Positions 7,364 to 39,457 of a stretch of DNA of 48,639 bases are shown piece after piece. Numbering within the stretch: the stretch's first letter is position 1; each line of letters begins with the position of its first letter. Origin of the DNA: Bacteroidota bacterium. Lineage in GTDB: Bacteria > Bacteroidota > Bacteroidia > Palsa-948. Both the position numbers and the translations under genes were made by a program. Location: the NCBI GenBank assembly GCA_016213435.1, contig JACRAL010000168.1, forward strand, positions 1 through 48,639. Direction: 5' to 3'. Below the pieces are notes generated by a model. The model was not told the origin of the DNA. It worked only from the letters and a program-made list of their open reading frames with translations, and made no database searches.

Positions 7364-7390
7364 ACCTCGGAATTCTGAGGTAGTTTTTTT
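7364..7390 (+). terminator. Candidate intrinsic terminator
   Basis: The near-perfect palindrome ACCTCGGAATTCTGAGGT (7364-7381) is followed two bases later by seven T on the plus strand. It would end transcripts from the SPOR-like gene, although it lies about 175 bp after that stop codon. The rest of 7189-7445 shows no gene. Confidence 0.5.
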
Positions 7391-7445
7391 AATAGAAGAA
7401 TAGTACAAAATCCAGTCGAGCACCTATTCGTTTCCGATAATCTAA

Positions 7446-7880: not shown

Positions 7881-8030
7881 AGTTATTTAGTGTTTAATGA
7901 TTAGTGTTTAAAGTTAGGTTCGTCAATTTGTATCATGATTTATACAACAAATATTGACAATAGACTAGTTTTAGTTTTTGGTTTCCATAATTTTTAGTTT
8001 TTAGTTGATATTAATATTAGTTTTTACTAT

Positions 8031-8390
8031 TCAAGTATAATTTTGTTTCTCCCTTTCAATTTCTTTAATTGCCTGCTTGCATGTAAAATCAAGCTTTTGA
8101 TTCAATGCTTTTATTTTTTCAATATTTGATGCCGTTGCTCCCAAAGCCTCCATCTCCTGCAAAACAGGCGCAAGCTCAGAAATACCCATTATGGAAACAG
8201 ATGACTTCATCGTATGGGCAGAGTTCTTTATGATTGAATAATCTGCTTTTGTTATCGCATTGTTAATGGATTGTAGTTCTTCAGGAACTTGTTTGAGAAA
8301 AACATCTATTATTTCTTTTACCAAATGTTTTTTTTCTCCCATTGTCTCTGAAAGATAACTGAAGTCACACACATGTTTGTTGTTTTTCAT
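8031..8390 (-). CDS. Histidine phosphotransfer (HPt) protein
   Basis: A 119-residue four-helix HPt domain. The phosphorylated histidine is H59 in the AHTMKSSVSIMG motif, matching the HxxKSS consensus. It passes phosphate from the kinase's attached receiver (D911) to a terminal receiver, probably the 144-residue protein downstream. The start overlaps the end of the kinase gene by 26 bp, showing translational coupling and supporting a dedicated relay. The length is typical for a free-standing HPt. Confidence 0.92.
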   Translation of the reverse strand: MKNNKHVCDFSYLSETMGEKKHLVKEIIDVFLKQVPEELQSINNAITKADYSIIKNSAHTMKSSVSIMGISELAPVLQEMEALGATASNIEKIKALNQKLDFTCKQAIKEIEREKQNYT

Positions 8391-11337
8391 TGTATTGTGA
8401 ATTAATGGTTAAGTCATATATTTTTTCAAAAAGCAGATTTGAATTTATCGGTTTTGAAATATAATCGTTCATCCCTAAACTCAAACACTTTTCTCGTTCT
8501 CCTGCCATTGCATGTGCCGTCATTGCAATAATTGGAATATTGTCTTTCATCTCATTGCGAATAACATTTGCTGCCTCATATCCGCTCATCACCGGCATTT
8601 CCATGTCCATCAAGATAATGTCAAAATTATTTTCTTTGAGTTTTCCAACACACTCACTTCCATTTTCCACGATCTGCAATTTCAAACTATTTTCAGAAAA
8701 TAAACTTGAAATCAGTTTTACATTCAAAGGATTATCCTCAGCCAAAAGAATATTTAATTTTCTAATATCGTTCATATTGTACTTTTTCACTATTACCTCC
8801 GGTGCCGACAGCACTTCCATAGATTTTTTGTAGGGAATGTAAAAAGAAAAAGTAGAGCCTACCTTGAATTCGCTTTTAACCGATATAGTGCCGCCCTGAA
8901 GTTCGATCAACTGTTTTGCGATACTCAAACCAAGCCCTGTACCACCGTATTTCCTGGCAACATTAGAATCCGCCTGCTGAAATCGCTCAAAAATATGCTC
9001 AAGTTTATCCTGAGGTATTCCTATGCCGGTATCTTTTATAGAAAATCCTAATAAAATATTTTCGTCATGATCCCTATCCAGATCGTTTTTAAGAACTCTA
9101 ACATTCACCTCCACTTTTCCTCTTTTTGTAAACTTAATTGCGTTGCCTACTAGGTTGATGATGATTTGGGTAAGACGTACGGAGTCTCCAAGCAAAACAT
9201 CGGGCACGTCTTCCTCGCATCTGAATAACAACTCCAGATTTTTTGCTTTCGCCTTTTCCATCAGCATTATATTGAGCGATTTTAAAATTTCTTTGACACT
9301 AAAATTATTTTTTTCAAAAGTCATCATGCCAGCTTCGATCTTCGATATATCAAGTATGTCATTAATAATAGTCAGCAGATTTTCTCCGGCAGATTTTATC
9401 ATTGTGACGTATTCTCTTTCTTTCTGCCCCAAATTTTTTCTGGATAACATATCTGAAAATCCAATGATAGCATTCATTGGTGTGCGTATTTCATGACTCA
9501 TATTGGCAAGAAATACATCTTTTAACTTAGTAGAATCTTCTGCCTTTTGCTTCGCTTTTTCCGCCTCAATTTTTGCTTCAAGCAAACTAATGGCGTATTG
9601 TGATGCTTGTTTTTGTTTGGTAACATCACGAATAGCAGCAGATATTAATAAACCATCAGCTGTTTTTAAGGGGCCGAGAGAAACTTCTATAGGAAATTCT
9701 TTCCCATTCTTACGCAGTCCAAATAAATCCACCCCAATTATTTCTCCCATTGTTCGGATGTGAGGATGAGCAAAAAAATATTTTCTTTGGCATGAATGAA
9801 TGTCTTTGAAACGATCAGGAATTAATGTCTCTAATTTTTTTCCAATAATTTCACCTCTCTTATATCCAAATATTTTTTCAGCCTGAAAATTTACTAATTC
9901 AATATTTCCCATGCTATTTACTATAACAATAGCATCCGGAGAAGACTCTAGCAACCCTCTAAATTTATCTTCGGATTTTTTCCTTTCTGTAATATCTCTA
10001 GCAGTGGCAAAAGCACCAAGTATGTTACCTTCATTGTCTTTATAAACCGAAAAATTATACAACACATCCATTAATTTACCGCTTACATGCTTAAGGGTTA
10101 AATGATAATCGGTGATAAATCCTTTTTCAAAAATCTGCTTTATACTCTCCTCTGCTTTCTCGTAATCAGTAAAATACATTGAAAAGCTAGTTCCTATAAT
10201 TTTTTTACGAGGAATACCTATAGCTTTCGTAGACGCTTCATTCACATCCATTATGATCCCATTGGAACTGATTGTAACAAAAGGGTCTAAACTCGCTTCA
10301 ATTAAACTGCGCACGTATTGAGATATCTGTTCTTGTTCTTTAAACCGTTTTGACTTCAGAATATCTCGGTAAATAAAATACGAAAACAGAAGAGCCAGTG
10401 TCAGCCCGAATGTGCTGAGCCAATTGCTAATAAAATTTATTTGCATGCTGGTTTCTTCGGTAGCTGCCTGAATCCTTTTTACTCCTTCAACAAGTTCTGT
10501 GTTTTCCATACTGTTCAAAAGTGAAAAAATATGATGCATCACCTTGTATTCTCGCTCAATAATATCCACCTCTTTAGACAAAATTCTTCCTGCTTTAATT
10601 TTTTCTTCCTGCTGTGTTTTAGCAATTAATCTTCTGATGTCTTCCTGAGCAGAATCTGATGAAACAGCCGGAAAGACAAAACTTGATATATCTTCTTTTT
10701 TCTTCTGTGAAGAGAATAATTTTGAAAAAAAAGATCTCTTAGGAGTTTCAGCTACTTGTTTGAGATGATCTGTCTTGCTGGCAGACAGTTTTTTTACAAC
10801 AGTATTTTTTGTTTTGTGAAGCAACTGCAAAAGTATGTCCTGCGAACTCTCTCCTGTTTTTAACTCAATATATTCACTGAATAAACTAACCCTGATTACT
10901 ATGAGTTCTTTCAATGTTGCGATTTTTGCTGAGAAATCTTGATTAACGTTTGCCTCATCTATGTCATGAGTCTCACCCCGAGATGACAACAACAGCAAGG
11001 TATCCAACCGTGTGTTTATTCTGTGGATGTAGTTTTCATAACTGAGCAGATAAGCCGTATCACGCTTGATTGTATATGCTTTTACACTTGCTTCTGCAGA
11101 ATAAAGATTATTAGATATTTCCTTTAGTTTTACGAGCTTGATATTCGGCTCTAATATAGCTGTCACTGTCTTAGATAGTTGCGAAAGTTTTTTGTGAGTA
11201 ATATTTACTGCAATAAAAAACAAACCGGCAATAAGCCCAAATCCAACTACTACTTTCCAAATAACTCTTCGAATATTCTGAAGAGTTATTTGATCAGCAT
11301 TAATTTGCTTTAAAAAAATATTTTTCAGATTTTTCAT
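8365..11337 (-). CDS. Membrane hybrid sensor histidine kinase with two PAS domains
   Basis: A 990-residue hybrid kinase. Membrane segments at about 29-48 and 300-322 enclose a mostly helical extracytoplasmic sensor of about 250 residues. Two PAS domains follow (about 340-455 and 460-580), then HisKA with H615 in MSHEIRTPMNAIIGF, then HATPase with N-box LVGNAIKFTKRG and G-boxes DTGIGIP and GGTGLGLSI. A C-terminal receiver (about 858-975) has D911 in ILMDMEMPVMSG and a lysine in ISKPIN. A Ser/Lys-rich stretch near 185-220 lies within the sensor region. Phosphate would move H615 to D911 to HPt H59 to the lone receiver. The signal is unknown; the helical sensor resembles the CHASE3/four-helix type but I cannot assign it. 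Confidence 0.93.
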   Translation of the reverse strand: MKNLKNIFLKQINADQITLQNIRRVIWKVVVGFGLIAGLFFIAVNITHKKLSQLSKTVTAILEPNIKLVKLKEISNNLYSAEASVKAYTIKRDTAYLLSYENYIHRINTRLDTLLLLSSRGETHDIDEANVNQDFSAKIATLKELIVIRVSLFSEYIELKTGESSQDILLQLLHKTKNTVVKKLSASKTDHLKQVAETPKRSFFSKLFSSQKKKEDISSFVFPAVSSDSAQEDIRRLIAKTQQEEKIKAGRILSKEVDIIEREYKVMHHIFSLLNSMENTELVEGVKRIQAATEETSMQINFISNWLSTFGLTLALLFSYFIYRDILKSKRFKEQEQISQYVRSLIEASLDPFVTISSNGIIMDVNEASTKAIGIPRKKIIGTSFSMYFTDYEKAEESIKQIFEKGFITDYHLTLKHVSGKLMDVLYNFSVYKDNEGNILGAFATARDITERKKSEDKFRGLLESSPDAIVIVNSMGNIELVNFQAEKIFGYKRGEIIGKKLETLIPDRFKDIHSCQRKYFFAHPHIRTMGEIIGVDLFGLRKNGKEFPIEVSLGPLKTADGLLISAAIRDVTKQKQASQYAISLLEAKIEAEKAKQKAEDSTKLKDVFLANMSHEIRTPMNAIIGFSDMLSRKNLGQKEREYVTMIKSAGENLLTIINDILDISKIEAGMMTFEKNNFSVKEILKSLNIMLMEKAKAKNLELLFRCEEDVPDVLLGDSVRLTQIIINLVGNAIKFTKRGKVEVNVRVLKNDLDRDHDENILLGFSIKDTGIGIPQDKLEHIFERFQQADSNVARKYGGTGLGLSIAKQLIELQGGTISVKSEFKVGSTFSFYIPYKKSMEVLSAPEVIVKKYNMNDIRKLNILLAEDNPLNVKLISSLFSENSLKLQIVENGSECVGKLKENNFDIILMDMEMPVMSGYEAANVIRNEMKDNIPIIAMTAHAMAGEREKCLSLGMNDYISKPINSNLLFEKIYDLTINSQYNEKQQTCV

Positions 11338-13616: not shown

Positions 13617-14915
13617 CTACCTTTTTTCGTGAGAGTCCAGTATTGTCTTAAAGAGCATATGATATTTTTTTGCCTGCACCTCTGGCTTGCATTCGTCCGG
13701 TTGTATCCATTTGCCCTCATTTAATCCTTTTGCATTAAAAAGAATTTTATGTAACCCTGTACAAAAATCTTCACTGTCATACATTTTAACCAAATACCCC
13801 CTTTCTTCCGAAGTGATTAAATCAGGAGCTACTCCACTGTTAAAGGCAACTACCGGGGTTCCACACATTATTGCTTGGTTAATCATCATTGGACCTGCAT
13901 CATCAATAGAGGGACAAGCAAAAACATCTGAGGACTGATAGCAAAGAGCAAGAATTCTTTCATCATATATAAACCCCATGTTTTTAAATTCAAAATCATT
14001 ATTCCATTCATTTATCCCAAAACCAGCAACCATCAATAAGATGTCAGATTTCTTGTTATGATTAGTCATCTTACTTAGATTGGCTAACGCTTTTGCAAGA
14101 AATTCCATTCCCTTTCTCTTATCATTTAAAGACTGAGCTCCAAAAAAAATTATCTTCTTTTCTCTTGGCAAATCCAGCACAGTCCGTGCAATTGCTTTAT
14201 CTCCTTTTTTAAATATCGTCTTATCAACTCCCACTAATATCTTTTCTATGGGCTTGTGACTGAATAAAGAGCTTTCCTTTATACGATCCTTGATCCAGGA
14301 ACTGCCGGCTACAAAAGTAATATCCAGTTTTTGTAAATCCAATTTCTTTTTATTCCAAAGACCTCGCGAGAAATCATTTTCCTTTTCTGATTTTAATTGT
14401 GGGCAATTGCCACACGATTTTTTAAATCCATCACACCCTTCGGTATAATGACACCCTCCTGTCAAAGGCTCGACATCCATTAATGTCCATACGATGGGAG
14501 CATCAGTATTACGTTGAATAGCATGAACCATTTTAGTAGACAAAAAATCATCAATCCAATGCAAACAAATGATGTCAGCACCAAGCAGATGTTCTTTAAT
14601 AGAGGCTATAGTAAAATAATCAGTATTCGAATTAAACGTTGTTGAAACATTTTCTAATTCGTTTCGAACATTCAAAAACAACTTTCTATAAACAAGACCA
14701 AATAATGATTTTTGAAATATTTTTTTTAACGTACTTATCAATGAACCCTTTACTTTGACAGGGGCTATTTCAATACACAAATCACTTACCTTAGTCTTGT
14801 ATTTCACAAGAAAAATAGAATCCAATCCTTCCTTGAGCAACGACAAATGAAGTTGGTAGGCAACTTTAGCAGCTCCACCGGCAGTTGAGTGAGTATTAAA
14901 ATGTATTACTTTCAA
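13617..14915 (-). CDS. GT4 glycosyltransferase (WcaC-like)
   Basis: A 432-residue GT-B glycosyltransferase. The N terminus, HFNTHSTAGGAAKVAYQLH, is characteristic of a GT4 subgroup seen in colanic acid and O-antigen loci. A cysteine cluster in the N-terminal half (GGCHYTEGCDGFKKSCGNCP) is also typical of that subgroup. The C-terminal nucleotide-sugar site shows DVFACPSIDDAGPMMINQA, with the E of the usual E-x7-E motif replaced, and GTPVVAFNSGVAPDLI. It transfers a sugar from an NDP donor to the growing glycan on the inner face of the membrane; donor and acceptor are unknown. It is the last gene of the long surface-polysaccharide operon, 30 bp after the preceding methyltransferase. Confidence 0.88.
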   Translation of the reverse strand: MKVIHFNTHSTAGGAAKVAYQLHLSLLKEGLDSIFLVKYKTKVSDLCIEIAPVKVKGSLISTLKKIFQKSLFGLVYRKLFLNVRNELENVSTTFNSNTDYFTIASIKEHLLGADIICLHWIDDFLSTKMVHAIQRNTDAPIVWTLMDVEPLTGGCHYTEGCDGFKKSCGNCPQLKSEKENDFSRGLWNKKKLDLQKLDITFVAGSSWIKDRIKESSLFSHKPIEKILVGVDKTIFKKGDKAIARTVLDLPREKKIIFFGAQSLNDKRKGMEFLAKALANLSKMTNHNKKSDILLMVAGFGINEWNNDFEFKNMGFIYDERILALCYQSSDVFACPSIDDAGPMMINQAIMCGTPVVAFNSGVAPDLITSEERGYLVKMYDSEDFCTGLHKILFNAKGLNEGKWIQPDECKPEVQAKKYHMLFKTILDSHEKR

Positions 14916-14945: not shown

Positions 14946-15803
14946 TTATTTCACACCTTCCATAAAGAGGGAAGCAGGTGCATGAACTGTGCCGTCTGAA
15001 TTAATATCCAGCAGATATTTATCCCAATCTTTAATTGATGAATCAATAGCTGTACAAACTTTAACTTCTTTAAAACCGTATTTTTCAAGAAGCTGCTTTA
15101 ATGAGTATCTATCATACATCCACTGATGAATCTCTCCCTGCAATCTAAAAGAGCCGATCTCCAGTGCATTTAATTGATTCTCATCAAGAAGTGATTCAAT
15201 GATTGATCTACGAACACGGCTTGGAAATCTTCTGAAATTATAAATTGTTCTTCTTGCTTTTACTACTGCTCTCTTCCACAAAGAGCTCTTTTTTGAAGAA
15301 ACAGTTGATGTTTTTAAAATCTTTTTTTCTCTTGCCATATTTCCTGCTCGTTCAATAATAAACTCTCGGTCAGGGATATCAGGTTGCAAGAGGTATTTTC
15401 CCATTTCACCATCAGGCACTGTTCTAACTGCCTGGTCATACATTTCCAGCAATATCCAGTCATATTTTCCAATCCACTCCTCATGACCTGCTGTAAGTTT
15501 TTCTAACGCTTCTAAGTAAACCCTGCAGATATTTTCAAGATTTGGTAAAACCACCCTGATGATTCCGCCAGGTTTTAATACTCTATAACATTCTTTAATT
15601 AATTTCTCAGCGTCATTTTTGGTGAAATGCTCCAAAATATGTGAATGATATACTACATCAAATGTCTGAGATGGAAATGGTATTCCTTTTAAAAGATTGC
15701 AAGCAATAACACGCTCATTAGCAGAAAAAAAATCAATGTTTGTCCAAAGAGACTCACTGCAAAATCTAGAACCACACCCAATATTCAGCATAGCTGTTTC
15801 CAT
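14946..15803 (-). CDS. SAM-dependent methyltransferase (type 11)
   Basis: A 285-residue class I methyltransferase. SAM-binding motif I (MLNIGCGSRF) is at the extreme N terminus, followed by FDVVYHSHILEHF and VLKPGGIIRVVLPNLENI. A long basic insertion of about 100 residues (about 130-225) interrupts the family fold before the C-terminal strands, where YGFKEVKVCTAIDSS is the final motif. It belongs to the surface-polysaccharide operon, between the GT4 gene and the GT/TylF fusion gene, so sugar O- or N-methylation of the glycan is likely. It resembles the methyltransferase half of the 484-residue fusion upstream, suggesting a shared origin. Confidence 0.85.
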   Translation of the reverse strand: METAMLNIGCGSRFCSESLWTNIDFFSANERVIACNLLKGIPFPSQTFDVVYHSHILEHFTKNDAEKLIKECYRVLKPGGIIRVVLPNLENICRVYLEALEKLTAGHEEWIGKYDWILLEMYDQAVRTVPDGEMGKYLLQPDIPDREFIIERAGNMAREKKILKTSTVSSKKSSLWKRAVVKARRTIYNFRRFPSRVRRSIIESLLDENQLNALEIGSFRLQGEIHQWMYDRYSLKQLLEKYGFKEVKVCTAIDSSIKDWDKYLLDINSDGTVHAPASLFMEGVK

Positions 15804-15844: not shown

Positions 15845-17566
15845 TCATTGCTTAATAAAATATCGTGCACTTGCATCAATATGAATGAGGAATGATTTAA
15901 TATTTTTTGATTGCATAAATTCATCCACCGCTTTTTTGCATCCTTCATAAGTTCCATAATCATCAATTATCACAAACCCTCCTGAAACCACATTATCAAA
16001 TAGATGATCTAAACAAACTTTGGTGGAAGCATACCAATCACCATCCAGTCTCAAAATAGCTATTTTCCCAACTGTTAAAGCATCTTTGGGAACAGTATCC
16101 TGAAACCAGCCCTTATGGTAATGCAAAAAAGATTTATCATATCCGATTACTTCTTCCATCAGTTTTTTGTTAATCTCAAGTGTTCCTATGCCATCTGCAA
16201 AAGTTTCATACAGGTTCTTCACAGCAACAAGTCTCCCCTTTGTCTCCCCTTTTACGCTTCTTACCTCATTCAATGCTCTTGCACCATCCACCAATTCATC
16301 CGGTTCAGGTATACCTTCAAATGAATCAAAAAGATGAATATGTCTTCTTATTGTATTATTTTTTAAGTTAGCAAGCGCCATTAATCCTACCGCTCCTCCC
16401 TTCCATGTTCCACACTCTACAAAACAACCTTCAATTTTATTTCTTTCACAAAAAACCACCTGTTGAAATAGCGTTACCAATCTAGGATACGTCAACATGG
16501 TATAAGGTCGTATCAATTCAATATTGGAATAGGCCTCAACCTCTAAATCAAAACCCATATAACTATTCTCCTTTTGAGGAATCACTTTTTTAAATCTTCT
16601 TATTTCAAATCCAAATGCTTTTGCCATAACTCTTATTGAGGATTTAATCATAAAAATCAAATTATTGCGTTTTGAAATATTTTTTTTGTTCGCAGCATCG
16701 TATAAATACTTTTTTATCTCGCAAAAGGATGACTCATCTGTTCTCACCTTATCAGGGAATTTTTTAATCCCGTAATTAACGTTAAAATCTTTCAAAAGAA
16801 AAGGATTGCTTTCTTTGGTATGAGTTCCTTCTGTATCGAATCCAATATTTTTCACCAAACTTCTATCAGGAAAAAGCACAAAGCCTTTTTCTTTAGCAAC
16901 AGACCACCACCAGCGGATTGCCCATGAATCAATCTCATTTGTTTCCATTTGCTTGAATAACATATCAGACAAAGGATATGAATTATCAAGGTTGAACTTC
17001 TTTTCTGCTAATTTGTCTGTTTTCAGAATTTCATATCCAGTTGCTTTTGCATCAAATTGATTCCATGCTCTCTTCCATGTTGCCCATCCCCATGAAGTTG
17101 TCATGGGTAAAAAAAAACATGAATTCTTTTTTTTAATGTTCTTTGCAGGAAAACAATGACCAGAAATTTGCATGACCTTTTCTTCTTGCTCGTATTTATT
17201 AAGTGCCTCATTCATGTATCGCAAAAATTCTTTCGCTGTTACTAAATCATCTTCTATTACAATTATTTTTCCGTATTTATTGATTATTTCAGTCACTCCT
17301 TCAATAACAGAATTTGCAAGTCCTTTATTTTTTGCTGACTCAATAAGAATAATTTCTTTGCACCACCTTTTTTCTACTACAATATTTCGCACTTCAGCAA
17401 TTTTACTTTTCTCATTTTCCGATACTCCATTTTTAAGTCCATCTGCAAACACATATAAGATCGATTCATCAGCCAGTTCATTCTTCGTCAATGCTTCCAA
17501 CGTTTGTTTTGTATGCCAGGGGCGATTGTAAACAAACAATACTATGGGTGCTAATATTGAATTCAT
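15845..17566 (-). CDS. Fusion of GT-A glycosyltransferase and TylF-type O-methyltransferase
   Basis: A 573-residue two-domain enzyme. Residues 1 to about 280 are a GT-A fold transferase of the type that starts with PIVLFVYNRPWHTKQTLEAL. It has the metal-binding region IIVIEDDLVTAKEFLRYMNE and a following SWGWATWKRAWNQFD, as in GNT-I/sugar-transferase-like proteins of capsule loci. Residues about 340-573 are a TylF/macrocin O-methyltransferase: FVECGTWKGGAVGLMA binds SAM, and HLFDSFEGIPEPDE and LDGDWYASTKVCLDHLF plus VIIDDYGTYEGC carry the metal-site acidic residues. The pairing suggests a sugar is added and methylated by one polypeptide, which could cap or modify chain ends. The start is 3 bp after the previous stop. 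Confidence 0.88.
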   Translation of the reverse strand: MNSILAPIVLFVYNRPWHTKQTLEALTKNELADESILYVFADGLKNGVSENEKSKIAEVRNIVVEKRWCKEIILIESAKNKGLANSVIEGVTEIINKYGKIIVIEDDLVTAKEFLRYMNEALNKYEQEEKVMQISGHCFPAKNIKKKNSCFFLPMTTSWGWATWKRAWNQFDAKATGYEILKTDKLAEKKFNLDNSYPLSDMLFKQMETNEIDSWAIRWWWSVAKEKGFVLFPDRSLVKNIGFDTEGTHTKESNPFLLKDFNVNYGIKKFPDKVRTDESSFCEIKKYLYDAANKKNISKRNNLIFMIKSSIRVMAKAFGFEIRRFKKVIPQKENSYMGFDLEVEAYSNIELIRPYTMLTYPRLVTLFQQVVFCERNKIEGCFVECGTWKGGAVGLMALANLKNNTIRRHIHLFDSFEGIPEPDELVDGARALNEVRSVKGETKGRLVAVKNLYETFADGIGTLEINKKLMEEVIGYDKSFLHYHKGWFQDTVPKDALTVGKIAILRLDGDWYASTKVCLDHLFDNVVSGGFVIIDDYGTYEGCKKAVDEFMQSKNIKSFLIHIDASARYFIKQ

Positions 17567-17569
17567 TTT

Positions 17570-19024
17570 TTAGGGCTTGACTGCATCAACAATAAGCGAA
17601 GTATAATTTAACTTTCCATCTTTATTTCTGGCATCATATCTTCTTGAACGCCTTACATGACCGCCTTCATCTGTCCACTCAATAAAATGAAACTCTCCCT
17701 GCTCATCCCAATATTCCAATAAACTAACCTTAAAACCTACAGCTTCTAATCGCTGCTTCAATATTTTGTAATTATAAAGAATTTTATGATCATCTGCCCC
17801 CTCTCCGCTCCCTCCCGGTTTTACCCATTCAATATAATCCTTATTGGGGTTATATCCATCCGGAACTGCAATACGCAACACTCCGCCTCTTTTTAAAAAA
17901 TAAAAGCAATTCTTGTTTGCTTGTTCAGTATTAGTGTCAGAAAGATGTTCCCATACATGTTCTGCAACAATATTGTTAAGGCTCAGGAATTTTAAATATT
18001 TTTTCCATTCACTTGATTTTGTAATATCAAGTGAGTCTCTATCGGTACAAAACCATCCGTTTTCAAAGCAAAATTTACCTGCACCAATATTAAATTTTCT
18101 CACCGGAGAAAACAGCAATTTAAAGAAGACGCTATTCGATATTCTAAATAAGATAGCATCCTTTTTCATTTTCATCCTGAAAGGTATATTGTATTTTTTA
18201 AAGATGCTTTCAATTTGAACATACTTATCAAAGTTATTACGAGAATAATTCTTTGATATCCTGCCATCGGTTCTCAGAAAATAATTACACGCCTCTAGGG
18301 TAAAATGATATTTAAACTGATTAGGTATAGTTTTAAGATTCACAATTGCTTCAGGATCATCAGCTACGGATTTGTACAATAAGGGCTTATGCGAATAATC
18401 ATGATTCAAATGGATAACCTCCACTGATCCACTTAAATCAATTACCCTAAATCTATTAACTCTGGCATTATAAATCATCCAAAGATCCCAGCCCGGTCTA
18501 CCTATATAAAGCTCGGGCATTTTTTCAAAATTATATTGCCCTTTTGGAAAAACAAAAAAATCGCTTCCTGTAGGAGAATGTAGTTTAAAGGAGGAGGCAT
18601 ATTTACTAGTAAACCGCTTCTCCCATCCTTGCACAAACTCAATCTCCTCATTTACATCAACGTCTAATCGTTCACCAACCAGCAAGTATGCTCTTTTTAA
18701 TTTTTCATGAAGGAACTGTCCTCTTTCAAAAAAATTATTTGTCAGAATTATATCCGCATTAACATAACAACAAATTGAATGTTTGGCTATCTCATTTACA
18801 GCATTAAACATTTCATTTGCAAACGGAGCACCCGTAGATGTCAACCTAACCTGTTTAACTATTTTTAAAAGCGGATGTTCTCCTAGCTCCTCAACACCAT
18901 TACTTCTACCAAAAATGATTACCTCAGGTTGATAACTAGAATTCAGCCAACTGCGTATCGCATTTAATTGATTGACTCTATTGATTCCAACAAAATCTTT
19001 GGTGGTTGTAAATAAAGTAATCAT
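17570..19024 (-). CDS. Fusion of GT-A-like domain and class I methyltransferase
   Basis: A 484-residue protein. The N-terminal 250 residues have a GT-A-like layout (LFTTTKDFVGINRVNQLNAI, then PEVIIFGR, then CCYVNADIILTNNFF, where the D-x-D-like pair would sit, and GRPGWDLWMIYNARV). Residues about 310-484 are a SAM methyltransferase: FNIGAGKFCFENGWFCTD, NIVAEHVWEHLSDTN and FLKRGGVLRIAVPDGYNP, ending in YTSLIVDAVKP as in predicted SAM-dependent methyltransferases of LPS loci. Its ATG overlaps the FkbM stop (ATGA), so expression is coupled. The donor and the methylated position are unknown. It is the second glycosyltransferase-methyltransferase fusion in a row. Confidence 0.82.
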   Translation of the reverse strand: MITLFTTTKDFVGINRVNQLNAIRSWLNSSYQPEVIIFGRSNGVEELGEHPLLKIVKQVRLTSTGAPFANEMFNAVNEIAKHSICCYVNADIILTNNFFERGQFLHEKLKRAYLLVGERLDVDVNEEIEFVQGWEKRFTSKYASSFKLHSPTGSDFFVFPKGQYNFEKMPELYIGRPGWDLWMIYNARVNRFRVIDLSGSVEVIHLNHDYSHKPLLYKSVADDPEAIVNLKTIPNQFKYHFTLEACNYFLRTDGRISKNYSRNNFDKYVQIESIFKKYNIPFRMKMKKDAILFRISNSVFFKLLFSPVRKFNIGAGKFCFENGWFCTDRDSLDITKSSEWKKYLKFLSLNNIVAEHVWEHLSDTNTEQANKNCFYFLKRGGVLRIAVPDGYNPNKDYIEWVKPGGSGEGADDHKILYNYKILKQRLEAVGFKVSLLEYWDEQGEFHFIEWTDEGGHVRRSRRYDARNKDGKLNYTSLIVDAVKP

Positions 19025-19866
19025 CTTTGAATATTCTTATTAACATAAATAGCATCCCACTCATAAATTTTTTCATCCTGACGAATAGAAGGAATCATAT
19101 TGTATAATTCAAAATTATTATTACGCATAAATTCATCTATCTGGTAGTATTTAGGCGCACCAATATATAAATCATGATTTTGCATTTCAACAAGTACTAT
19201 GGCTGTTCTATTTAATGTTTCTACTCCTCCTTTCAAAACTTCAAGTTCATAGCCTTGTACATCCATCTTTAATATGCTCACATTCTTTTCTTGCGGAATA
19301 TCAACATCTAATTTACTCATCTGAACCTGTATTGTTCCTTCTTCTTTTAGATTTTTTTTCCAAAACTCATTCGTCAGATTCTTCTCTATATCCAATAAAG
19401 AAGAAGAGGTTACCCTTGCAGCAAGATGTATGTTAAGCGATTTTATTTCATTTCCAAGTGCCTTATTAATAATCTCAATAGCTGGATAACCTGCGGTTTC
19501 ACGCTTTAATATTTGAAATGTATCTGGAATAGGTTCAAAAGCATAAATCACCGAGGAGGGAAACGCTTTAGAAAAACGGATTGAAGTAATGCCCGATGCA
19601 GCGCCAACATCTAAAACTAAATTTTCAGATGGAAGATTAAAAAAACGAGCAAGTTCTATTGCTTTATCAATATGCTTATAGCCATCATTGAATACAGATG
19701 GGTACTTATCTGCTTCTTCGTACAACTCAGGAAAACTGCGGAGAAATAAATTAAAATCAAACTGATTGTTTTTTAAATCATAGCTCATCAAAGCAAAAAC
19801 ACCTTGCTTAATGGCATTGCTTTTATAAAAAAGATAGGTTATTATTTTTAATATCAATTTATTCAC
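19021..19866 (-). CDS. FkbM-family methyltransferase
   Basis: A 281-residue SAM-dependent O-methyltransferase of the FkbM family. The SAM motif is NLVLDVGAASGITSIRFSKAF (residues 82-102), followed by IYAFEPIPDTFQILKRE, then SILKMDVQGYELEVLKGG and IVLVEMQ, all in the family's normal order. The roughly 80-residue N-terminal lead is usual for members in polysaccharide loci. It overlaps both neighbours by 4 bp (ATGA arrangement), so its product is likely made in fixed ratio with theirs. Expected role: methylating a sugar hydroxyl of the surface glycan; the target sugar cannot be inferred. Confidence 0.9.
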   Translation of the reverse strand: MNKLILKIITYLFYKSNAIKQGVFALMSYDLKNNQFDFNLFLRSFPELYEEADKYPSVFNDGYKHIDKAIELARFFNLPSENLVLDVGAASGITSIRFSKAFPSSVIYAFEPIPDTFQILKRETAGYPAIEIINKALGNEIKSLNIHLAARVTSSSLLDIEKNLTNEFWKKNLKEEGTIQVQMSKLDVDIPQEKNVSILKMDVQGYELEVLKGGVETLNRTAIVLVEMQNHDLYIGAPKYYQIDEFMRNNNFELYNMIPSIRQDEKIYEWDAIYVNKNIQR

Positions 19867-20735
19867 GCTATGTTTTTTTGCAAAATCACTAATTGATGAT
19901 CTGAAGAAATTGCAGGAAGACCATTATATTGCTTTTTTAATATTTGTCGAATAAGTGAAATCCATTCCATTGAATCGCGTTTCGATTGATGCGTTTTAGA
20001 TGCGTATGTTAAGATAATCTGCTTTACAAAGAACCCAGTTAATTGATGAAAGTATTTTTTCGAGGGATAGATAACATGTTCGGGATAGTTGCAATACCAC
20101 CATCTTTCCCGTGAAAGCTTTGCCGCAAATGAATTTGGATTTCCTGTAAGTAAGATAAAAAGCCCTGAAGGCTTAAGTATATTACTAACGAAACTCAGAA
20201 AACCCTTAACATCATATAAGTGTTCAAAAACATCAAATGCCGTAACGATATCAAATGTTTCATTAACATCCCTGAAAGATTGAAAAGCTATATGTCCTTT
20301 TTGCTTCAATATCGTACAACTCTCTTTACAAATTTCCAACCCATAAGTTTGCATTTGAAAAGAAGAAGCAAAATCAAGAAACTCTCCTGTATTACATCCA
20401 ACATCAAGCAGTTTTTTATTTCTAAAAGATTTGTTTTTTTTAAAATAGTTAATCACAGCATCCGTCTTATCCGTTTCAAATGATTGATTTGCCCATCGCT
20501 TAGATCCCTCGCCAATAGAGTATAATTCTTCCGCAATTTGAGGTGGGATTGCGTTTTGAGTAAATGAAGATTGGCACAATTTGCATTCCCACAATTCAGG
20601 TTGTTGGGTAAGTTGAATTCTAATAGTTGACAAATAAAGTTCATTTGCATATTTCAAATCACCTGTTTTATAAATAGTTTTTGAACTACATAAAGGGCAA
20701 TGCTCTATGCGATAGTTGTTTTCTATTATTTTCAT
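19863..20735 (-). CDS. Methyltransferase with N-terminal zinc ribbon
   Basis: A 290-residue protein. C13/C16 (HCPLCSS) and C51/C54 (ECKLCQSSF) form a four-cysteine zinc ribbon, followed by a class I methyltransferase with LLDVGCNTGEFLDFA (109-123), DIVTAFDVFEHL and LKPSGLFILLTGN. The zinc-ribbon plus Methyltransf_23 arrangement is common in sugar C-methyltransferases and in many uncharacterised capsule-locus enzymes. No C-terminal C-methyltransferase domain is present, so an O-methyl role is at least as likely. It starts 7 bp after the cytidylyltransferase stop. Because it directly follows the phosphoramidate-type genes, it is a second candidate for methylating that group. Confidence 0.83.
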   Translation of the reverse strand: MKIIENNYRIEHCPLCSSKTIYKTGDLKYANELYLSTIRIQLTQQPELWECKLCQSSFTQNAIPPQIAEELYSIGEGSKRWANQSFETDKTDAVINYFKKNKSFRNKKLLDVGCNTGEFLDFASSFQMQTYGLEICKESCTILKQKGHIAFQSFRDVNETFDIVTAFDVFEHLYDVKGFLSFVSNILKPSGLFILLTGNPNSFAAKLSRERWWYCNYPEHVIYPSKKYFHQLTGFFVKQIILTYASKTHQSKRDSMEWISLIRQILKKQYNGLPAISSDHQLVILQKNIA

Positions 20736-20742: not shown

Positions 20743-21501
20743 TTAACCTATATTAATCTTATGGGTTTGATACGCTGTAATATCACTTATTGCATCTATT
20801 TCAAGCCACCCGCCTTCAATTAATACTGCTTTTACAGGAAGTAGCTGATCAATAATTCTCTGCAAAAATGTGGTCATATACATATTATTAAAATCCTTTC
20901 CGTCATATAATCTGTTTTTGTCCAGCAAGTGATAGAAGTCAATAATTTTTTTCAAAACTTTTTTTCTTATTTTTATTAACCCTATATACTGACCTTGAAT
21001 ATCGGAATAATTATTTGTCTTTTTTCCAAGTTCTATAATATTATATTGATTGTCAAGCTTAAGAGATTCAGCGTCATCCAACGGATTTTCCATTCTTAAT
21101 TTCCAGAGGTCCATCCATTTTTTATCCACCACTACAGAAACAGGCGATGTATCTGCTATTAATTTCAGAACAACAGATTTATTATAGATAATATCTGAAT
21201 AAGAAATAATAACATCATCATTCAATTCGGGTTCAGCACAAAAAAGAGAATACACCATGTTTGTTACAGCAAATTCGTTATTAGTGTAATACTTTATTTT
21301 TTGCGTAAGCAGATGATCTTGCAATACATCTATTTTATATCCTCCAACTATGCTAATTTCATTTATGCCGCAGCAATTTAAGGTTTCAAGACTTTTTCGA
21401 ACAAGTGTTTGCCCATTGTATTCAACCATACATTTAGGAACCGTATCCGTTAAAGGAGAAAGACGTGTTCCTCTGCCTGCAGCAAGAATAATTGCTTTCA
21501 T
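20743..21501 (-). CDS. LicC-like cytidylyltransferase, candidate CTP:phosphoglutamine cytidylyltransferase
   Basis: A 252-residue nucleotidyltransferase. The pyrophosphorylase signature, LAAGRGTRLSPLTDTVPK, runs from residue 6 to 23. VISYSDIIY supplies the metal aspartate, and the C terminus has GGWLEIDAISD. This is the LicC/sugar-nucleotidyltransferase type that activates small phosphorylated compounds with CTP. Length and context (4 bp after a glutamine-kinase-like gene, in an operon with an APS-kinase-like gene) match Cj1416 of Campylobacter jejuni, which makes CDP-L-glutamine from L-glutamine phosphate. That substrate is inferred; phosphocholine or a sugar phosphate remains possible, but no choline kinase or sugar kinase is nearby. 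Confidence 0.85.
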   Translation of the reverse strand: MKAIILAAGRGTRLSPLTDTVPKCMVEYNGQTLVRKSLETLNCCGINEISIVGGYKIDVLQDHLLTQKIKYYTNNEFAVTNMVYSLFCAEPELNDDVIISYSDIIYNKSVVLKLIADTSPVSVVVDKKWMDLWKLRMENPLDDAESLKLDNQYNIIELGKKTNNYSDIQGQYIGLIKIRKKVLKKIIDFYHLLDKNRLYDGKDFNNMYMTTFLQRIIDQLLPVKAVLIEGGWLEIDAISDITAYQTHKINIG

Positions 21502-21505
21502 AAAA

Positions 21506-23857
21506 TCAACTTATCATTCGGACTGTTCTATTTGAACAATCTAATTCAATTTGTTTTGCAGCACTCCAATTTAGGAAATTCTGTTCTCCACAACCGATCA
21601 CGGCAGGAATACCAAGCTCAGAACACCGGATAGACATATGGGAATTCGCTCCGCCATATTGAGTTACCAGTCCTGCAATATTTCTTGCAAATAAAAAATC
21701 ATAACCAGGATCAGCAGAACGAATAAAAACAATTTTATTTTCAAATGAGGACTTTGAAAATTTATTTTCAACCAATACTTCACCCGAGGCACTTTTTAAA
21801 GTAATAAAGTTTGGTTCATCGGTAGAAAGAAAAAAACTATATACATCCTCGGCACGGGATATGAGATGAGGAAGCTTGGCAGCAATTGTATATGAATATT
21901 TCTCTTTATTTATTTTAATATCACTTTCAAGCACTTCTTTCACCAAACGGTTATCTAACGAAGCATAAAAACCCTGAATTACTTTCACATCCACAAACGC
22001 CATATCCGCTTTTATAATTCCATTTTTCTTTCCCATTTCCTCAATCAAAGATAATACTTTGCTTAAAGATTTAGTAAATACGAATTTTGCATATTCGCGA
22101 TTTTCAATAGCACTTTTTATAAAAGCGAGCATCTCTTGGACAGAGAGTTTGAGTCCATTTTGTTTTATCAATTTCCCAATCGCGTTAATTTGCTTTTTAG
22201 AAAAATCAAAAGCGTCTTTTCCTGAAGCGCCTAACTCCGAAGAGAAATAATTTTTAAAATCTTCATCGTATCTAAGGGACATAATATCGTATGTGCCCGG
22301 TCGAAGGTGTCCGTATTTTTCAAGAAAATCCTTTTTCAAAATATTTCCTTGTTTTAATTTTCCAAGGTCCTCCGTTAATTTTTGCGTAATCGTATTTAAC
22401 GAATAATTGAACGACTGATAGTCTTCTTTTGAAATGATTCCTACATCAATTAATGAACGCAGGAATTGAGTAGCAATAAATGCCGAGCGTGCAATGCCTG
22501 CAAAAGGAAGCGTACCATACCTCTTGCAGTCTTCTATCAGCCAATATATTTTATCCACCAAAGAAAGATGGGATGAGAAAACCTGATCATATTTGGCACT
22601 AAGCAATTTTATTTTTTCTACATCTTTTTTATAATGTCCGAATTTGGGATTAATAATATTATTGGTTAGTTCTATCAATGATTTTTTAATCAATGTTATT
22701 TCCTGAACACTAAATCCGTGCTTTTTCAAATCCTGCAACTTATCTGAAAGATTAAAATAATAGCAAGAATGCACAATTTCAAATTCAACTTTATCGTGCA
22801 ATGCAGGCGAATGGGTAAGTTTATCCAAATAATAATTCACAAGCTTTTCAGCAATTCGCTCATTAAGCTGCTTAGGGATAAAAGAATTAAAATCGACCCT
22901 GACATCTATATAAGGTACTCCCAAAAACATGATCATTAAAGGATGCGACCTTAAATTTCTATAGCCATAATTATCCCGCTGATAAGCCCATATATTATCT
23001 GTAACAATTTCTTTATACAAAGAAACAGCGAGCTGTTTTGGTTTGATGCCTATTATTTCTGCCGGATTCCAATCGGGCATTACTCCAAACAAGGTCTTAT
23101 CTCCTAACAAGTTAGGATGTGGAGAAGAAAGTTTTTTTATTTTTTTAAATACACCCAATAAAGCATTTTGATAAGCTAACTCGCTGTAATTTTCTTTTCC
23201 TGCTTTAACTATGGGTCGGACTTGGAAAATAAATATTTCTTCTTTTTTATTTACAGCAAACTCAACATCGAGAAATGAGGAAGCAAAAAAAAACTCAATT
23301 TCTTTCAATGCAATGATCAATTTCTGCAAAAACAAAAGCGGTGCTTTAACAGGAGAATCTTTATATTGAATATATGTTTTCAGATGTCCATTATGCCCAC
23401 TGGTAACAATTGCGCTATCACTACCTTCGTTATAATTGATAATATAATAAGGCGCAAGAGTATCAGCATCGGCAGTGAAGGCAACACCAGCATAACAAAT
23501 ACCCGACAAGTGTTCCTGAACAAAAACCTGATCCTGTGGAATGATATTCTCGTAGGAATTAAAAACCTTTTCAATCGCATTTGAAATTTCAGAATCGCTT
23601 TCAGCTGAAATATTTCCTATAGAACTATATTTCCCGGCATTAGACAGATGAAGAGTATCCTCACTCAATGCAGAACTACGAATAATAAGTGAGCTACTTT
23701 TAATGGATTTCTTAATGGCATTTAAAATGGCGGTAGGATTGCTTTCCCATTCCTGCCAAGTGAATTTATAAAGAGGCAATACACGAAAGGACTTTGCGTT
23801 ATCGGATAAAACTTCTAATGTCTCCGCCTTTGTACCAAATACATTTTTTAATTTCAT
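21506..23857 (-). CDS. PEP-synthase-like phosphotransferase, candidate L-glutamine kinase
   Basis: A 783-residue enzyme. Residues 1 to about 220 are the PPDK/PEP-synthase ATP-grasp domain (R60 in RSSALSEDT, SNAGKYSS, DVEF at 197-200, QVRP at 212-215). A long unassigned helical region follows (about 230-690). The phosphohistidine swivel domain is at the extreme C terminus, with H740 in GGANSHMSIRCSELGIPAVIG. There is no PEP-binding barrel after it, so this is neither PEP synthase nor PPDK. ATP-grasp, central acceptor domain, then terminal swivel is the layout of C. jejuni glutamine kinase Cj1418 and of rifampin phosphotransferase. The cytidylyltransferase 4 bp downstream and the APS-kinase-like gene two genes upstream favour glutamine kinase. 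The acceptor remains inferred. Confidence 0.83.
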   Translation of the reverse strand: MKLKNVFGTKAETLEVLSDNAKSFRVLPLYKFTWQEWESNPTAILNAIKKSIKSSSLIIRSSALSEDTLHLSNAGKYSSIGNISAESDSEISNAIEKVFNSYENIIPQDQVFVQEHLSGICYAGVAFTADADTLAPYYIINYNEGSDSAIVTSGHNGHLKTYIQYKDSPVKAPLLFLQKLIIALKEIEFFFASSFLDVEFAVNKKEEIFIFQVRPIVKAGKENYSELAYQNALLGVFKKIKKLSSPHPNLLGDKTLFGVMPDWNPAEIIGIKPKQLAVSLYKEIVTDNIWAYQRDNYGYRNLRSHPLMIMFLGVPYIDVRVDFNSFIPKQLNERIAEKLVNYYLDKLTHSPALHDKVEFEIVHSCYYFNLSDKLQDLKKHGFSVQEITLIKKSLIELTNNIINPKFGHYKKDVEKIKLLSAKYDQVFSSHLSLVDKIYWLIEDCKRYGTLPFAGIARSAFIATQFLRSLIDVGIISKEDYQSFNYSLNTITQKLTEDLGKLKQGNILKKDFLEKYGHLRPGTYDIMSLRYDEDFKNYFSSELGASGKDAFDFSKKQINAIGKLIKQNGLKLSVQEMLAFIKSAIENREYAKFVFTKSLSKVLSLIEEMGKKNGIIKADMAFVDVKVIQGFYASLDNRLVKEVLESDIKINKEKYSYTIAAKLPHLISRAEDVYSFFLSTDEPNFITLKSASGEVLVENKFSKSSFENKIVFIRSADPGYDFLFARNIAGLVTQYGGANSHMSIRCSELGIPAVIGCGEQNFLNWSAAKQIELDCSNRTVRMIS

Positions 23858-23869
23858 TAATAAAAAAAA

Positions 23870-24646
23870 TTATTTTTTTATTGCTGTCCAGGCCCTAGAC
23901 TTATATGGAACAGAAATATCGGGAAGATTTTTTATTTCGCTTTCAATCATATTCAATATCTCTTTCCATTTTTCTGCACCTGCCTGTACCTGTATATCAT
24001 TTGTAGAATGCCATGCCCCCATGTATCTTTCTTTCGACATGGTAATATTATATTCCTCTTCAAGAAAAATAACATTTTTAAAATATCCAGATGCTATAAG
24101 TTTCTGGCTGAGATTTTCTGTAAAACCGGAAGAACCGGATGAAACTCTTTTAAGTGAGGGTACAATTTTCTGAATTTTAGATTCAATTCCAGAATGTAGT
24201 TCGCTTGACAAAATATTCCTTGGATTCCAGATAGCTGTAAAATATCCTCCACTTTTTAAAACCCTGTTAAATTCCGCCAACCCCTTATTAAAATCAACCC
24301 AATGAAAAGACGATCCCATTAACAGCCAATCTACTGAGCTTGAAATTAATGCTGTACTTTCTCCACTGCCTTTCTGCCATTTCACATTGCCTCTGTCTGC
24401 AACATACGACATACCTTCTTCTCTCATTGCATCGTTTGGCTCAATCGAAGTAAGAGACAATCCTAACTCCAAAAGATTCTCTGTTAGTTTGCCTGTTCCT
24501 GCTCCTACATCTGCAACAGCAAGCTCTTTATTTTTTTTTGAGACTTGACAAGTCAAATCGTTTAATATCATTCTCAATAAAGGAATGGAATATCCTGGCC
24601 TGTATTTATAGGCCTTTGCTAATGCGGTAAAATCTCCGTGCTGCAT
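23870..24646 (-). CDS. SAM methyltransferase in the phosphoramidate-type gene set
   Basis: A 258-residue class I methyltransferase. It shows AVADVGAGTGKLTENLLELG (residues 43-62) for SAM binding, SIEPNDAMREEG, WLLMGSSFHWVDFNKGL and VLKSGGYFTAIWNPRN. The FHWVD motif is typical of a subgroup related to trans-aconitate and ubiquinone-type methyltransferases. It lies between the APS-kinase-like and glutamine-kinase-like genes, 5 and 12 bp away. In C. jejuni the corresponding genes Cj1419 and Cj1420 are methyltransferases tied to the O-methyl group of the phosphoramidate. By position this one is the best candidate for that step here; ordinary sugar methylation is the alternative. Confidence 0.85.
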   Translation of the reverse strand: MQHGDFTALAKAYKYRPGYSIPLLRMILNDLTCQVSKKNKELAVADVGAGTGKLTENLLELGLSLTSIEPNDAMREEGMSYVADRGNVKWQKGSGESTALISSSVDWLLMGSSFHWVDFNKGLAEFNRVLKSGGYFTAIWNPRNILSSELHSGIESKIQKIVPSLKRVSSGSSGFTENLSQKLIASGYFKNVIFLEEEYNITMSKERYMGAWHSTNDIQVQAGAEKWKEILNMIESEIKNLPDISVPYKSRAWTAIKK

Positions 24647-24651
24647 ATTGC

Positions 24652-25155
24652 TTATTTTATTAATTGATATATTTTTTCTGCATTCAATTTAACTTCTTTC
24701 AAATTATTATTTTTAAACACCACTGCACCTTGAGGTTTATCAAAAGGAAGATCTATTCCTGTAACGTTTTTCATCTCTCCTTTTATTGCTAAGGAATATA
24801 ATCCTTTCTTGTTTCTCTTGATCAACTCCTGCATATCTACATCAATAAAAACCTCATAGTATTTTTTATTATGTTTTCGGTTGTATGTATGAATCTCCCT
24901 ATAAAGAGACATAGTAGAGCAAACCACATTAACACCCTGCGAAGTTAAGAAACTGCACAATCGCGCTATCCTCCAAGCATTCTTTTTTCTATCCTTTAAA
25001 TCGAAACCCAATTCATCCTGCATGATGCTTCTAAAATCGTCTCCATCTAAAAAGACAGAAGCAGGGTGCTTCTTTTTCATTTTACTATACACCTTTTTTG
25101 CAATGGTTGTTTTTCCTGAACCGGCTAACCCGGTTATCCATAATAGAAATGCCAT
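24652..25155 (-). CDS. APS-kinase-like kinase, candidate CDP-amidate kinase
   Basis: A 167-residue P-loop kinase of the CysC family: Walker A GLAGSGKTT (9-17), DGDDFR (37-42), LGFDLKDRKKNAWRIARL, KGLY (117-120) and GIDLPFDKP (133-141). Genuine APS kinases usually have FISPYR where this protein has TMSLYRE, a divergence in the substrate lid. No ATP sulfurylase gene occurs in the window to supply APS. In C. jejuni the same family member Cj1415 phosphorylates the ribose 3'-OH of cytidine diphosphoramidate. With a cytidylyltransferase and a glutamine-kinase-like gene in the same operon, that is my preferred reading. Production of PAPS for the adjacent sulfotransferase-fold protein is the main alternative. 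Confidence 0.85.
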   Translation of the reverse strand: MAFLLWITGLAGSGKTTIAKKVYSKMKKKHPASVFLDGDDFRSIMQDELGFDLKDRKKNAWRIARLCSFLTSQGVNVVCSTMSLYREIHTYNRKHNKKYYEVFIDVDMQELIKRNKKGLYSLAIKGEMKNVTGIDLPFDKPQGAVVFKNNNLKEVKLNAEKIYQLIK

Positions 25156-30797: not shown

Positions 30798-31095
30798 ATC
30801 TTTAAAAATAGATTGTAAATATAATAATATATTATCCTCAAAATAGATGTATAAGCAACTCTGAAAATTAATACAGAACACAGATACTACTGGGTTTCGA
30901 GTCTCTTTTTACTCCAACCTTACAGAACCGGTGTTCGTCTAACTCAAATAAAAATCCTCAAATGTTCGAAAAATTATGTAACCTTTTTATACAACAATCG
31001 TAACTGCAATAGCAGAAAATTACTAAATTTATGCTCATTTTTCTTTTGTCACAAACATTCGAATTAACATTATAATGTATATTAACATTTTCCTC
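30798..31095. promoter_or_regulatory. Divergent promoter region of polysaccharide operon and giant adhesin gene
   Basis: About 300 bp of AT-rich sequence between two divergent starts must hold both promoters. I cannot place a convincing Bacteroidota -7 (TAnnTTTG) box. A partial palindrome GAACCGGTGTTC (30925-30936) is the only dyad of note. No gene is visible apart from the unlikely N-terminal extension of the Wzc-like frame. Confidence 0.4.
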
Positions 31096-39416: not shown

Positions 39417-39457
39417 TTTTTGAAACTTTATTTTATGCTTTTACTTTAATAAATATT

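Follow-up and report, generated by a model that had tools for sequence, protein, structure and literature searches.

The analyzed DNA, here called the window, is the whole 48,639-nucleotide stretch of contig JACRAL010000168.1 from Bacteroidota bacterium GCA_016213435.1. It contains a minus-strand operon that runs in one direction throughout, from a Wzm permease gene beginning at 28430 to a GT4-type glycosyltransferase (GT) gene ending at 13617, neighboring genes being separated by no more than 41 bases or overlapping by 8 or fewer. The Wzm gene (ABC2_membrane, 27570 to 28430) is preceded on the same strand by a gene for a Wzc-like tyrosine autokinase/chain-length protein (28458 to 30881) and is followed by Wzt (26302 to 27564), whose C-terminal glycan-binding domain (Wzt_C) scored 53.7 bits against a cutoff of 30.4. 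The operon's glycan is probably exported through Wzm/Wzt. Farther along, domain searches identified an FkbM methyltransferase (19021 to 19866), a stand-alone Methyltransf_11 protein (14946 to 15803), and the GT4-type glycosyltransferase (13617 to 14915). Two genes for fused proteins, found at exactly 15845 to 17566 (fusion 1) and 17570 to 19024 (fusion 2), lie between the FkbM and Methyltransf_11 genes. In total, the operon encodes six methyltransferase domains against three recognized GTs.

The operon also holds most of a Campylobacter-type phosphoramidate cassette. This comprises a PRK05849-family gene for a probable L-glutamine kinase (21506 to 23857), which we place at the Cj1418 position; a gene for a cytidylyltransferase-like NTP transferase (20743 to 21501), presumably at the Cj1416 position; an APS-kinase-like gene for a probable CDP-phosphoramidate kinase (24652 to 25155), likewise assigned to Cj1415; and a methyltransferase gene (23870 to 24646) whose product shares about 50% identity with one member of the methyltransferase pair in the Campylobacterota cassette. 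These placements assume the C. jejuni gene order, and we took the small genomes of the Sulfurimonas phylum to be Campylobacter-like. The four protein types are shared with the Campylobacter O-methyl phosphoramidate cassette (Cj1415 to Cj1420) at approximately 40 to 54% identity to copies in Campylobacterota genomes, no named C. jejuni sequence being among them; the comparison covered the best 12 of 66 Campylobacterota matches and two of the 14 plasmid records found to carry the kinase gene. The functions of Cj1415 to Cj1418 follow PMC11800397. Unlike the Campylobacter cassette, the operon lacks a C26 amidase gene, the strongest homolog in the genome being unlinked (G000:C179), whereas all 22 other cassettes examined have one, 21 of them with it immediately next to the kinase gene. 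A further difference is the sulfotransferase-family gene (25161 to 26309) beside the kinase, whose product could, as a guess, be a phosphoramidate transferase. PAPS-dependent sulfation by the APS kinase and sulfotransferase is unlikely, because the ATP sulfurylase needed to feed APS kinase is missing; the 97.1% complete genome gave no CysD or Sat match. The glycan may also carry a phosphoramidate-type group. Elsewhere, the cassette adjoins Wzc-Wzm-Wzt in one locus (L176). In two Nitrospira loci (L093 and L104) no Wzt was found in the stretch examined, and there the cassette adjoins a 38% identical relative of the window's Methyltransf_23 protein (19863 to 20735).

Domain searches and structure prediction, the checks proposed in an initial annotation of the window, bore out its description of two adjacent proteins that each join a GT-A-like half to a methyltransferase half. 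Fusion 1 is an intact two-domain frame of 573 amino acids, with the GT half first (residues 1 to 320; 16607 to 17566) and the TylF half second (residues 355 to 571; 15854 to 16504). Its AF2 model has pLDDT values mostly above 85 for residues 1 to 290, falling to about 50 at 241 to 260 and standing at 64 to 69 at 291 to 320, and it predicts a 40-residue linker helix at residues 278 to 317. The model is poor past residue 326 and is uninformative on the methyltransferase half and on domain geometry. The top structural matches of the GT half were POMGnT1 and GnT-I (Foldseek E value, 2.4e-11). By VIA-align, POMGnT1 gave a Z score of 21.0 over 229 residues at 3.0 Å, with GnT-I at 20.9, GnT-II at 16.6, and the remaining GT-A enzymes at 14.4 or below. 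The GnT-I/POMGnT1 enzymes, which we take to be CAZy family GT13, share the fold and an EDD motif with this half but merely about 15% sequence identity. Pfam GNT-I gave no match for fusion 1 at an E value of 0.1, the best GNT-I score among the relatives scanned was 22.4 bits (L118) against a cutoff of 25.4, and a PDB profile search with the fusion 1 GT returned POMGnT1 as its sole match, at an E value of 0.79. Residues E105, D106, and D107 are identical in all 18 GTs aligned, and EDD is presumably the metal motif of the GnT-I family. Position 213, which we take as the candidate position of the GnT-I catalytic base, is not invariant: fusion 1 has D there, and several relatives have K, S, or N. 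The TylF match reached 148.3 bits against a curated Pfam cutoff of 23, and this domain aligns with NovP and MycF, the stretches LRLDGD and IIDDY being common to all; their acidic residues are presumably the metal site shared with MycF and NovP. The TylF, MycF, and NovP sugar O-methyltransferases stand alone and act on antibiotic sugars, unlike the fused domain observed here.

Fusion 2 is likewise an intact frame, of 484 amino acids, with a GT-A-like half (residues 1 to 275; 18200 to 19024) followed by a SAM methyltransferase half (residues 276 to 484; 17570 to 18199). The whole protein matched no Pfam family above the cutoff. An N-x-D-I motif, NADI at residues 89 to 92 of fusion 2, is invariant in the family of the N-terminal part (5 of 5 sequences in one alignment and 4 of 4 in another). 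The structure model is of lower confidence (pLDDT, 66 to 88 for residues 1 to 100 and largely below 50 past about residue 205), and on that model the best Z score against GT-A enzymes was 12.2, over 187 residues at 3.3 Å. The sole match in a PDB profile search with the fusion 2 GT was unrelated (E value, 1.3). The C-terminal domain is 42 to 63% identical to stand-alone proteins of about 210 amino acids, and its stand-alone homolog in L034 barely exceeds the Methyltransf_23 cutoff (28.3 versus 27 bits). The two fusions do, as had been proposed, carry methyltransferases of different families. The reported resemblance of the stand-alone gene at 14946 to 15803 to the fusion 2 C-terminal domain also held, at 28.7% identity and an E value of 4e-8, the neighbor itself being a Methyltransf_11 protein (48.3 bits; cutoff, 21.2).

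An assembly or sequencing artifact joining separate genes, raised in the initial annotation as a possible cause, is extremely improbable. The assembly does consist of 216 contigs, and neither exact pairing turned up outside the window: searches of 296 and 390 genomes, in overlapping draws, gave no other fusion 1 GT with TylF, and a search of 296 genomes gave no other fusion 2 GT-A domain with its methyltransferase. Two TylF frames of about 520 amino acids (G028 and G209) contained no fusion 1 GT, the extra part being weakly another methyltransferase in one. However, both frames are intact, and there is no GC step between the halves of fusion 1 (32.8 and 35.3%) or fusion 2 (34.4 and 34.8%). An error is unlikely also because fusions recur, in 12 of 79 relatives of the fusion 1 GT domain, several of them in isolates. 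GT-decorating fusions of like architecture are found in records not labeled as MAGs, among them Gelidibacter algens, Salinimicrobium sediminis, Mucilaginibacter sp. BT774, and Chryseolinea lacunae. Looking for the same fusions in other genomes, as the initial annotation advised, thus turned up the fusion 1 GT with varied partners but not the exact pairings; a second fusion of the fusion 2 GT to a methyltransferase was not seen.

The survey kept 80 loci from at least 552 confirmed relatives of the fusion 1 GT, of which 79 had a resolved open reading frame (L090 did not); besides the 12 fused cases, 67 loci had a stand-alone GT. We examined the partners in 17 fused proteins, made up of the 12 from the survey, another four from three genomes of this phylum, and the one in the window, excluding the giant frames L180 and L181. 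The partners were FkbM (5), TIGR04325 (5), hexapeptide acetyltransferase (5), Methyltransf_25/11 (1), and TylF (1). Where the GT is unfused, decorating enzymes tend to sit next to it: at the 67 stand-alone loci, their relatives made up 30 of 113 immediate neighbors versus 21 of 518 genes lying at a distance of four or more (P = 6e-12), and methyltransferases alone made up 11 of 113 versus 14 of 518 (P = 0.002). The fusion 2 methyltransferase follows suit, four of its five strong stand-alone relatives adjoining a fusion 1 GT relative and the fifth lying one gene away, and in Gallionella (L098) this methyltransferase type is joined to an unrelated GT2. In three genomes of the phylum, the operon's modules are found inside polypeptides of 1,246 to 3,744 amino acids, and L180 and L181 combine FkbM, a fusion 1-type GT, and, directly behind it, a relative of the window's GT4 in one polypeptide. 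The fusion of a GT to a decorating enzyme is a real, recurrent design that exchanges parts across many bacteria, and among the open-licence papers listed by the literature searches, none dealt with the fusion 1 GT module joined to these partner families. More tentatively, these loci might be modular add-and-decorate lines, in which one GT-A module is repeatedly recombined with different methyl- and acetyltransferases, so that one residue of the surface glycan is decorated differently once half a gene is exchanged. In the extreme case, parts of such a line would be joined into single polypeptides of up to 3,744 amino acids, largely preserving the order of the separate genes. L059 has two tandem fusions whose partners differ, and a 1,034-bp exact repeat there ends within their GT domain; under that reading, it would be a recently caught partner swap.

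The initial annotation had suggested that the fusions fix chain-end methylation, which the Wzt C-terminal domain reads. One fusion would add and methylate the last sugar, whereupon growth stops and Wzt recognizes the end, as with WsaE and WbdD. The exporter and its Wzt_C domain fit this proposal, and the four fused loci seen first (the window, L057, L058, and L059) all have Wzm/Wzt. There is also a characterized precedent in WsaE of Geobacillus stearothermophilus NRS 2004/3a, an enzyme of the S-layer glycan that combines a methyltransferase with two rhamnosyltransferases and is held to form a 2-O-methyl cap in a Wzm/Wzt system (PMC2943079). Klebsiella pneumoniae O7 ORF6 is a single-chain protein with a methyltransferase-kinase terminator plus GT modules (PMC11231755). 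However, what fitted the first four loci did not fit the independent set, where Wzt was near 6 of 12 fused versus 20 of 67 stand-alone GTs (P = 0.15), or 3 of 8 versus 16 of 45 in the flank-limited set (P = 0.60). Pooling with the discovery loci gave 10 of 16 versus 20 of 72 (P = 0.01), a pooling that we treat as biased, and the fusion was dropped as a marker of Wzt-dependent loci. A GT4 within three genes of the fusion 1-type GT was no commoner with Wzt (5 of 26 loci) than without it (10 of 53). Moreover, two fusions, L123 with an acetyltransferase as partner and L159 with a methyltransferase, lie in loci that encode a Wzx-type flippase, and one with an FkbM partner lies beside an EpsG-family protein (L092), settings in which a Wzt-read cap is not expected. 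Among the other fused loci without Wzt, no flippase was recognized among the membrane proteins scanned in L100 and L118, and L156 is a 4.3-kb contig. Five of the 17 fused partners are acetyltransferases, not methyltransferases. Finally, in known terminators a coiled-coil ruler separates the polymerase from the terminator (PMC11231755). A home-made heptad score, a rough measure and not a proper predictor, gave 0.57 and 0.37 for the fusions, 0 to 0.60 for globular operon proteins, and 0.70 for the Wzc positive control; it picked up no long coiled coil, though the linker helix is predicted in fusion 1. Chain-end capping by a fusion is therefore unlikely. A cap made by any one of the operon's six methyltransferase domains is possible, yet the fusions as such are not good grounds for proposing it, nor do they look like a dedicated chain-ending switch.

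We consider it fairly probable that both fusions are two-domain enzymes working on one growing surface glycan. The N-terminal GT-A domain would transfer a sugar from a nucleotide sugar to the glycan, and the tethered C-terminal domain would O-methylate the added residue or its neighbor before the next enzyme acts, such that the residue would already be decorated on leaving the enzyme. We infer that both domains are active and act on the same residue, and that the residues are internal, in a repeat or adaptor, and not only terminal. That the fusion merely fixes stoichiometry or co-expression, its methyltransferase domain modifying a residue added by another GT, seems quite unlikely. The free variation of partners and the excess of methyltransferase domains over recognized GTs in the operon would suit it; against it, GT genes and decorating genes strongly tend to be neighbors even where they are not fused, though co-expression alone could also favor such an arrangement. 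If the tethered domains of an add-and-decorate enzyme share one residue, gene sequence alone would tell which sugar bears which methyl or acetyl group, something usually hard to predict for bacterial glycans. A GT module that recurs with five different partner types is also a natural set for testing crosstalk between GT and decorating domains, and not every methyltransferase near Wzm/Wzt should be taken for a chain terminator.

Known enzymes of ABC-exported glycans resemble the window fusions in part. K. pneumoniae O7 ORF6 and Escherichia coli O9a WbdD are, like them, methyltransferase-bearing proteins of an ABC export system, but as described in PMC11231755 and PMC3482155 these terminators contain a kinase as well as a coiled-coil ruler, and neither part was recognized in the fusions by Pfam or the rough heptad score. 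WsaE, compared here by its description in PMC2943079, has an N-terminal methyltransferase and two GT domains, whereas the window has two proteins in a row, each with the GT first and one GT only. In both cases, O-methyltransferase and glycosyltransferase domains share one polypeptide encoded in a Wzm/Wzt cluster.

The initial annotation described two adjacent chains, each joining a GT-A domain to a different type of methyltransferase, and this description held. In fusion 1 (15845 to 17566, minus strand, 573 aa), residues 355 to 571 matched TylF at 148 bits against a Pfam cutoff of 23, and NovP and MycF aligned with this domain, including its LRLDGD and IIDDY stretches. The structure of residues 1 to 290 was predicted mostly with high confidence, and the glycosyltransferase model was closest to POMGnT1 and GnT-I (Z score of 21; Foldseek E value, 2.4e-11), followed by GnT-II (16.6) and other GT-A enzymes (14.4 or below). 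An EDD motif was kept in 18/18 relatives; the score for membership in the Pfam GNT-I family was not reached. Among TylF relatives, the nearest one found is encoded separately on contig C128 of the same genome (57% identity), which may mean that the lineage itself was the source of the TylF half. Fusion 2 (17570 to 19024, minus strand, 484 aa) matched no family in a Pfam scan, and a model of its N-terminal domain, built from four sequences, has a GT-A fold (Z score of 12.2). Stand-alone members of that domain family occur at loci L046, L048, L054, and L088, and relatives are also carried by viral contigs (L163:3989-4843 and L165:4001-4744). Stand-alone proteins of ∼210 aa show 42 to 63% identity to the C-terminal domain, and in Gallionella (L098) a methyltransferase of this type, 51% identical over that part, is joined to a canonical GT2 in a 474-aa protein.

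The fusion of glycosyltransferases with methyltransferases is a real, recurrent, and modular design. GTDB genomes were scanned with a profile of the fusion 1 glycosyltransferase, and 80 of at least 552 confirmed relatives were taken as loci; an open reading frame was resolved at 79, those above 450 aa being counted as fused. Among these listed matches, 12 of the 79 loci were fused. Adding fusion 1 itself and four proteins from three genomes in the same phylum as the window (L012, L013, and two in G124) gave 17 proteins, whose partners were FkbM (5), TIGR04325 (5), hexapeptide acetyltransferase (5), Methyltransf_25/11 (1), and TylF (1). Hosts include Chitinophaga, Gelidibacter, Salinimicrobium, Mucilaginibacter, and Chryseolinea, as well as a Sulfurimonas, an Achromatium, and a Myxococcales bin. 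The glycosyltransferase module of fusion 1 therefore recurs with varied partners, but the exact pairings of the window were not seen in the other genomes searched. Two other TylF frames of ∼520 aa (L197:775-2331 and L198:1323-2891) are not glycosyltransferase fusions as far as Pfam shows; the extra N-terminal part weakly resembles another methyltransferase in L197 and had no match in L198.

Separately encoded partners tend to be adjacent as well, as a Rosetta-stone test showed. At the 67 loci with a stand-alone glycosyltransferase, relatives of the decorating methyl- and acetyltransferases made up 30/113 immediate same-strand neighbors versus 21/518 genes at least four away (P = 6e-12), and methyltransferases alone 11/113 versus 14/518 (P = 0.002); these P values are rough, since adjacent genes are not independent observations. 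Acetyltransferase relatives account for 19 of the 30.

Some glycosyltransferase-methyltransferase polypeptides are giant, at 1246 to 3744 aa (L181:1497-12728, minus; L180:8251-15600, minus; L179:2725-11000, plus). Those of L180 (2450 aa) and L181 (3744 aa) carry FkbM, a fusion 1-type glycosyltransferase, and GT4 in order, plus more glycosyltransferase domains. At L179, where the fusion 1 type is absent, a 1246-aa protein has TylF (779 to 983) and then a relative of the 14946-15803 product (999 to 1246, 46% identity), and the next protein (1513 aa) begins with GT4; TylF, Methyltransf_11, and GT4 are neighbors in the window, matching this order. In the single-contig genome of L059, a fusion to an acetyltransferase and another to FkbM lie in tandem. 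A 1034-bp exact direct repeat there (7378 to 8411 and 9826 to 10859) spans the greater part of a 233-aa gene and the initial 338 bp of the glycosyltransferase; ending within that domain of both fusions, it could permit recombination that switches the decoration. No comparable repeat was found in the window operon.

The window corresponds to contig C118 in a genome of 3.7 Mb (216 contigs, 97% complete), and T9SS sorting domains suggest that its source belongs to Bacteroidota. The genes of its glycan operon, from 30881 to 13617, all lie on the minus strand, overlap slightly or are separated by no more than 41 bases, and encode a Wzc-like kinase, Wzm, Wzt with Wzt_C, a sulfotransferase-family protein, an APS-kinase-like protein, a methyltransferase, a PRK05849-family protein, a cytidylyltransferase-like protein, Methyltransf_23, FkbM, fusion 2, fusion 1, Methyltransf_11, and GT4. 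Divergent from it lies a 1982-aa SprB-repeat protein with PKD and T9SS sorting domains (31075 to 37023, plus), and farther on an Eco57I-like DNA methyltransferase adjoins a 457-aa protein with coiled-coil-like stretches (38043 to 41077, minus), possibly a restriction system.

Within the operon, 20743 to 25155 holds a gene set of the Campylobacter O-methyl phosphoramidate type, here outside Campylobacterota, with genes for a glutamine-kinase-family protein, a cytidylyltransferase, an APS-kinase-like protein, and a methyltransferase. PRK05849 was detected at an E value threshold of 1e-60 in 66/298 Campylobacterota genomes and in 7/395 of the window's phylum, its own included. The window proteins are 46 to 49% (kinase), 47 to 54% (cytidylyltransferase), and 40 to 45% (APS-kinase-like) identical to the Campylobacterota copies, and the methyltransferase is 49 to 53% identical to the closer of two there (short pieces up to 59%) and 34 to 36% to the other. 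In the best 12 of the 66 Campylobacterota loci, a C26 gene adjoins the kinase gene (12/12), with a cytidylyltransferase relative in 11/12 and two methyltransferase relatives in 10/12, the second broken or split in three. No C26 amidase gene occurs in the window operon (the site examined is 21501 to 21506), but one lies within all 22 other cassettes read, from Nitrospira (two), an Azospirillum plasmid, a Vibrio plasmid, the window's phylum (six), and Campylobacterota (twelve), and in 21 of them it adjoins the kinase gene. An unlinked C26 homolog is present in the same genome (G000:C179:4226-4939; 28% identity to a Nitrospira one). A search of the genome for ATP sulfurylase found no match, which makes PAPS an unlikely product of the APS-kinase-like protein. 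In three phyla, the cassette includes a sulfotransferase-family gene (window 25161 to 26309, Nitrospira L093 and L104, and Azospirillum plasmid L161); from this recurrence and the missing sulfurylase, our guess is that its product transfers phosphoramidate from a PAPS-like donor instead of sulfate.

The initial annotation further proposed that the fused methyltransferase could cap the chain end for reading by Wzt. Among the loci inspected first, Wzm/Wzt was present at 4/4 fused (window, L057, L058, and L059) and 0/5 stand-alone loci (L060 to L064). In the independent GTDB set, a Wzt-like frame of at least 380 aa occurred within the available sequence at 6/12 fused versus 20/67 stand-alone loci (P = 0.15), and at 3/8 versus 16/45 where more than 7 kb was available on both sides (P = 0.60); pooling the independent and first-inspected loci gave 10/16 versus 20/72 (P = 0.01), and a mild enrichment may exist. 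Fused loci L123 and L159 have a Wzx-type flippase and L092 an EpsG-family protein, and no full Wzt was found at any of the three. On these counts and loci, the fusion fits Wzt systems yet is not tied to them. Capping is possible, but the comparative evidence does not favor it. Known terminators contain a coiled-coil ruler (PMC11231755). A rough heptad score gave no sign of one in fusion 1 or 2, but the fusion 1 linker contains a predicted 40-residue helix. A precedent is WsaE, described in PMC2943079 as combining a glycosyltransferase and a capping methyltransferase within one chain.
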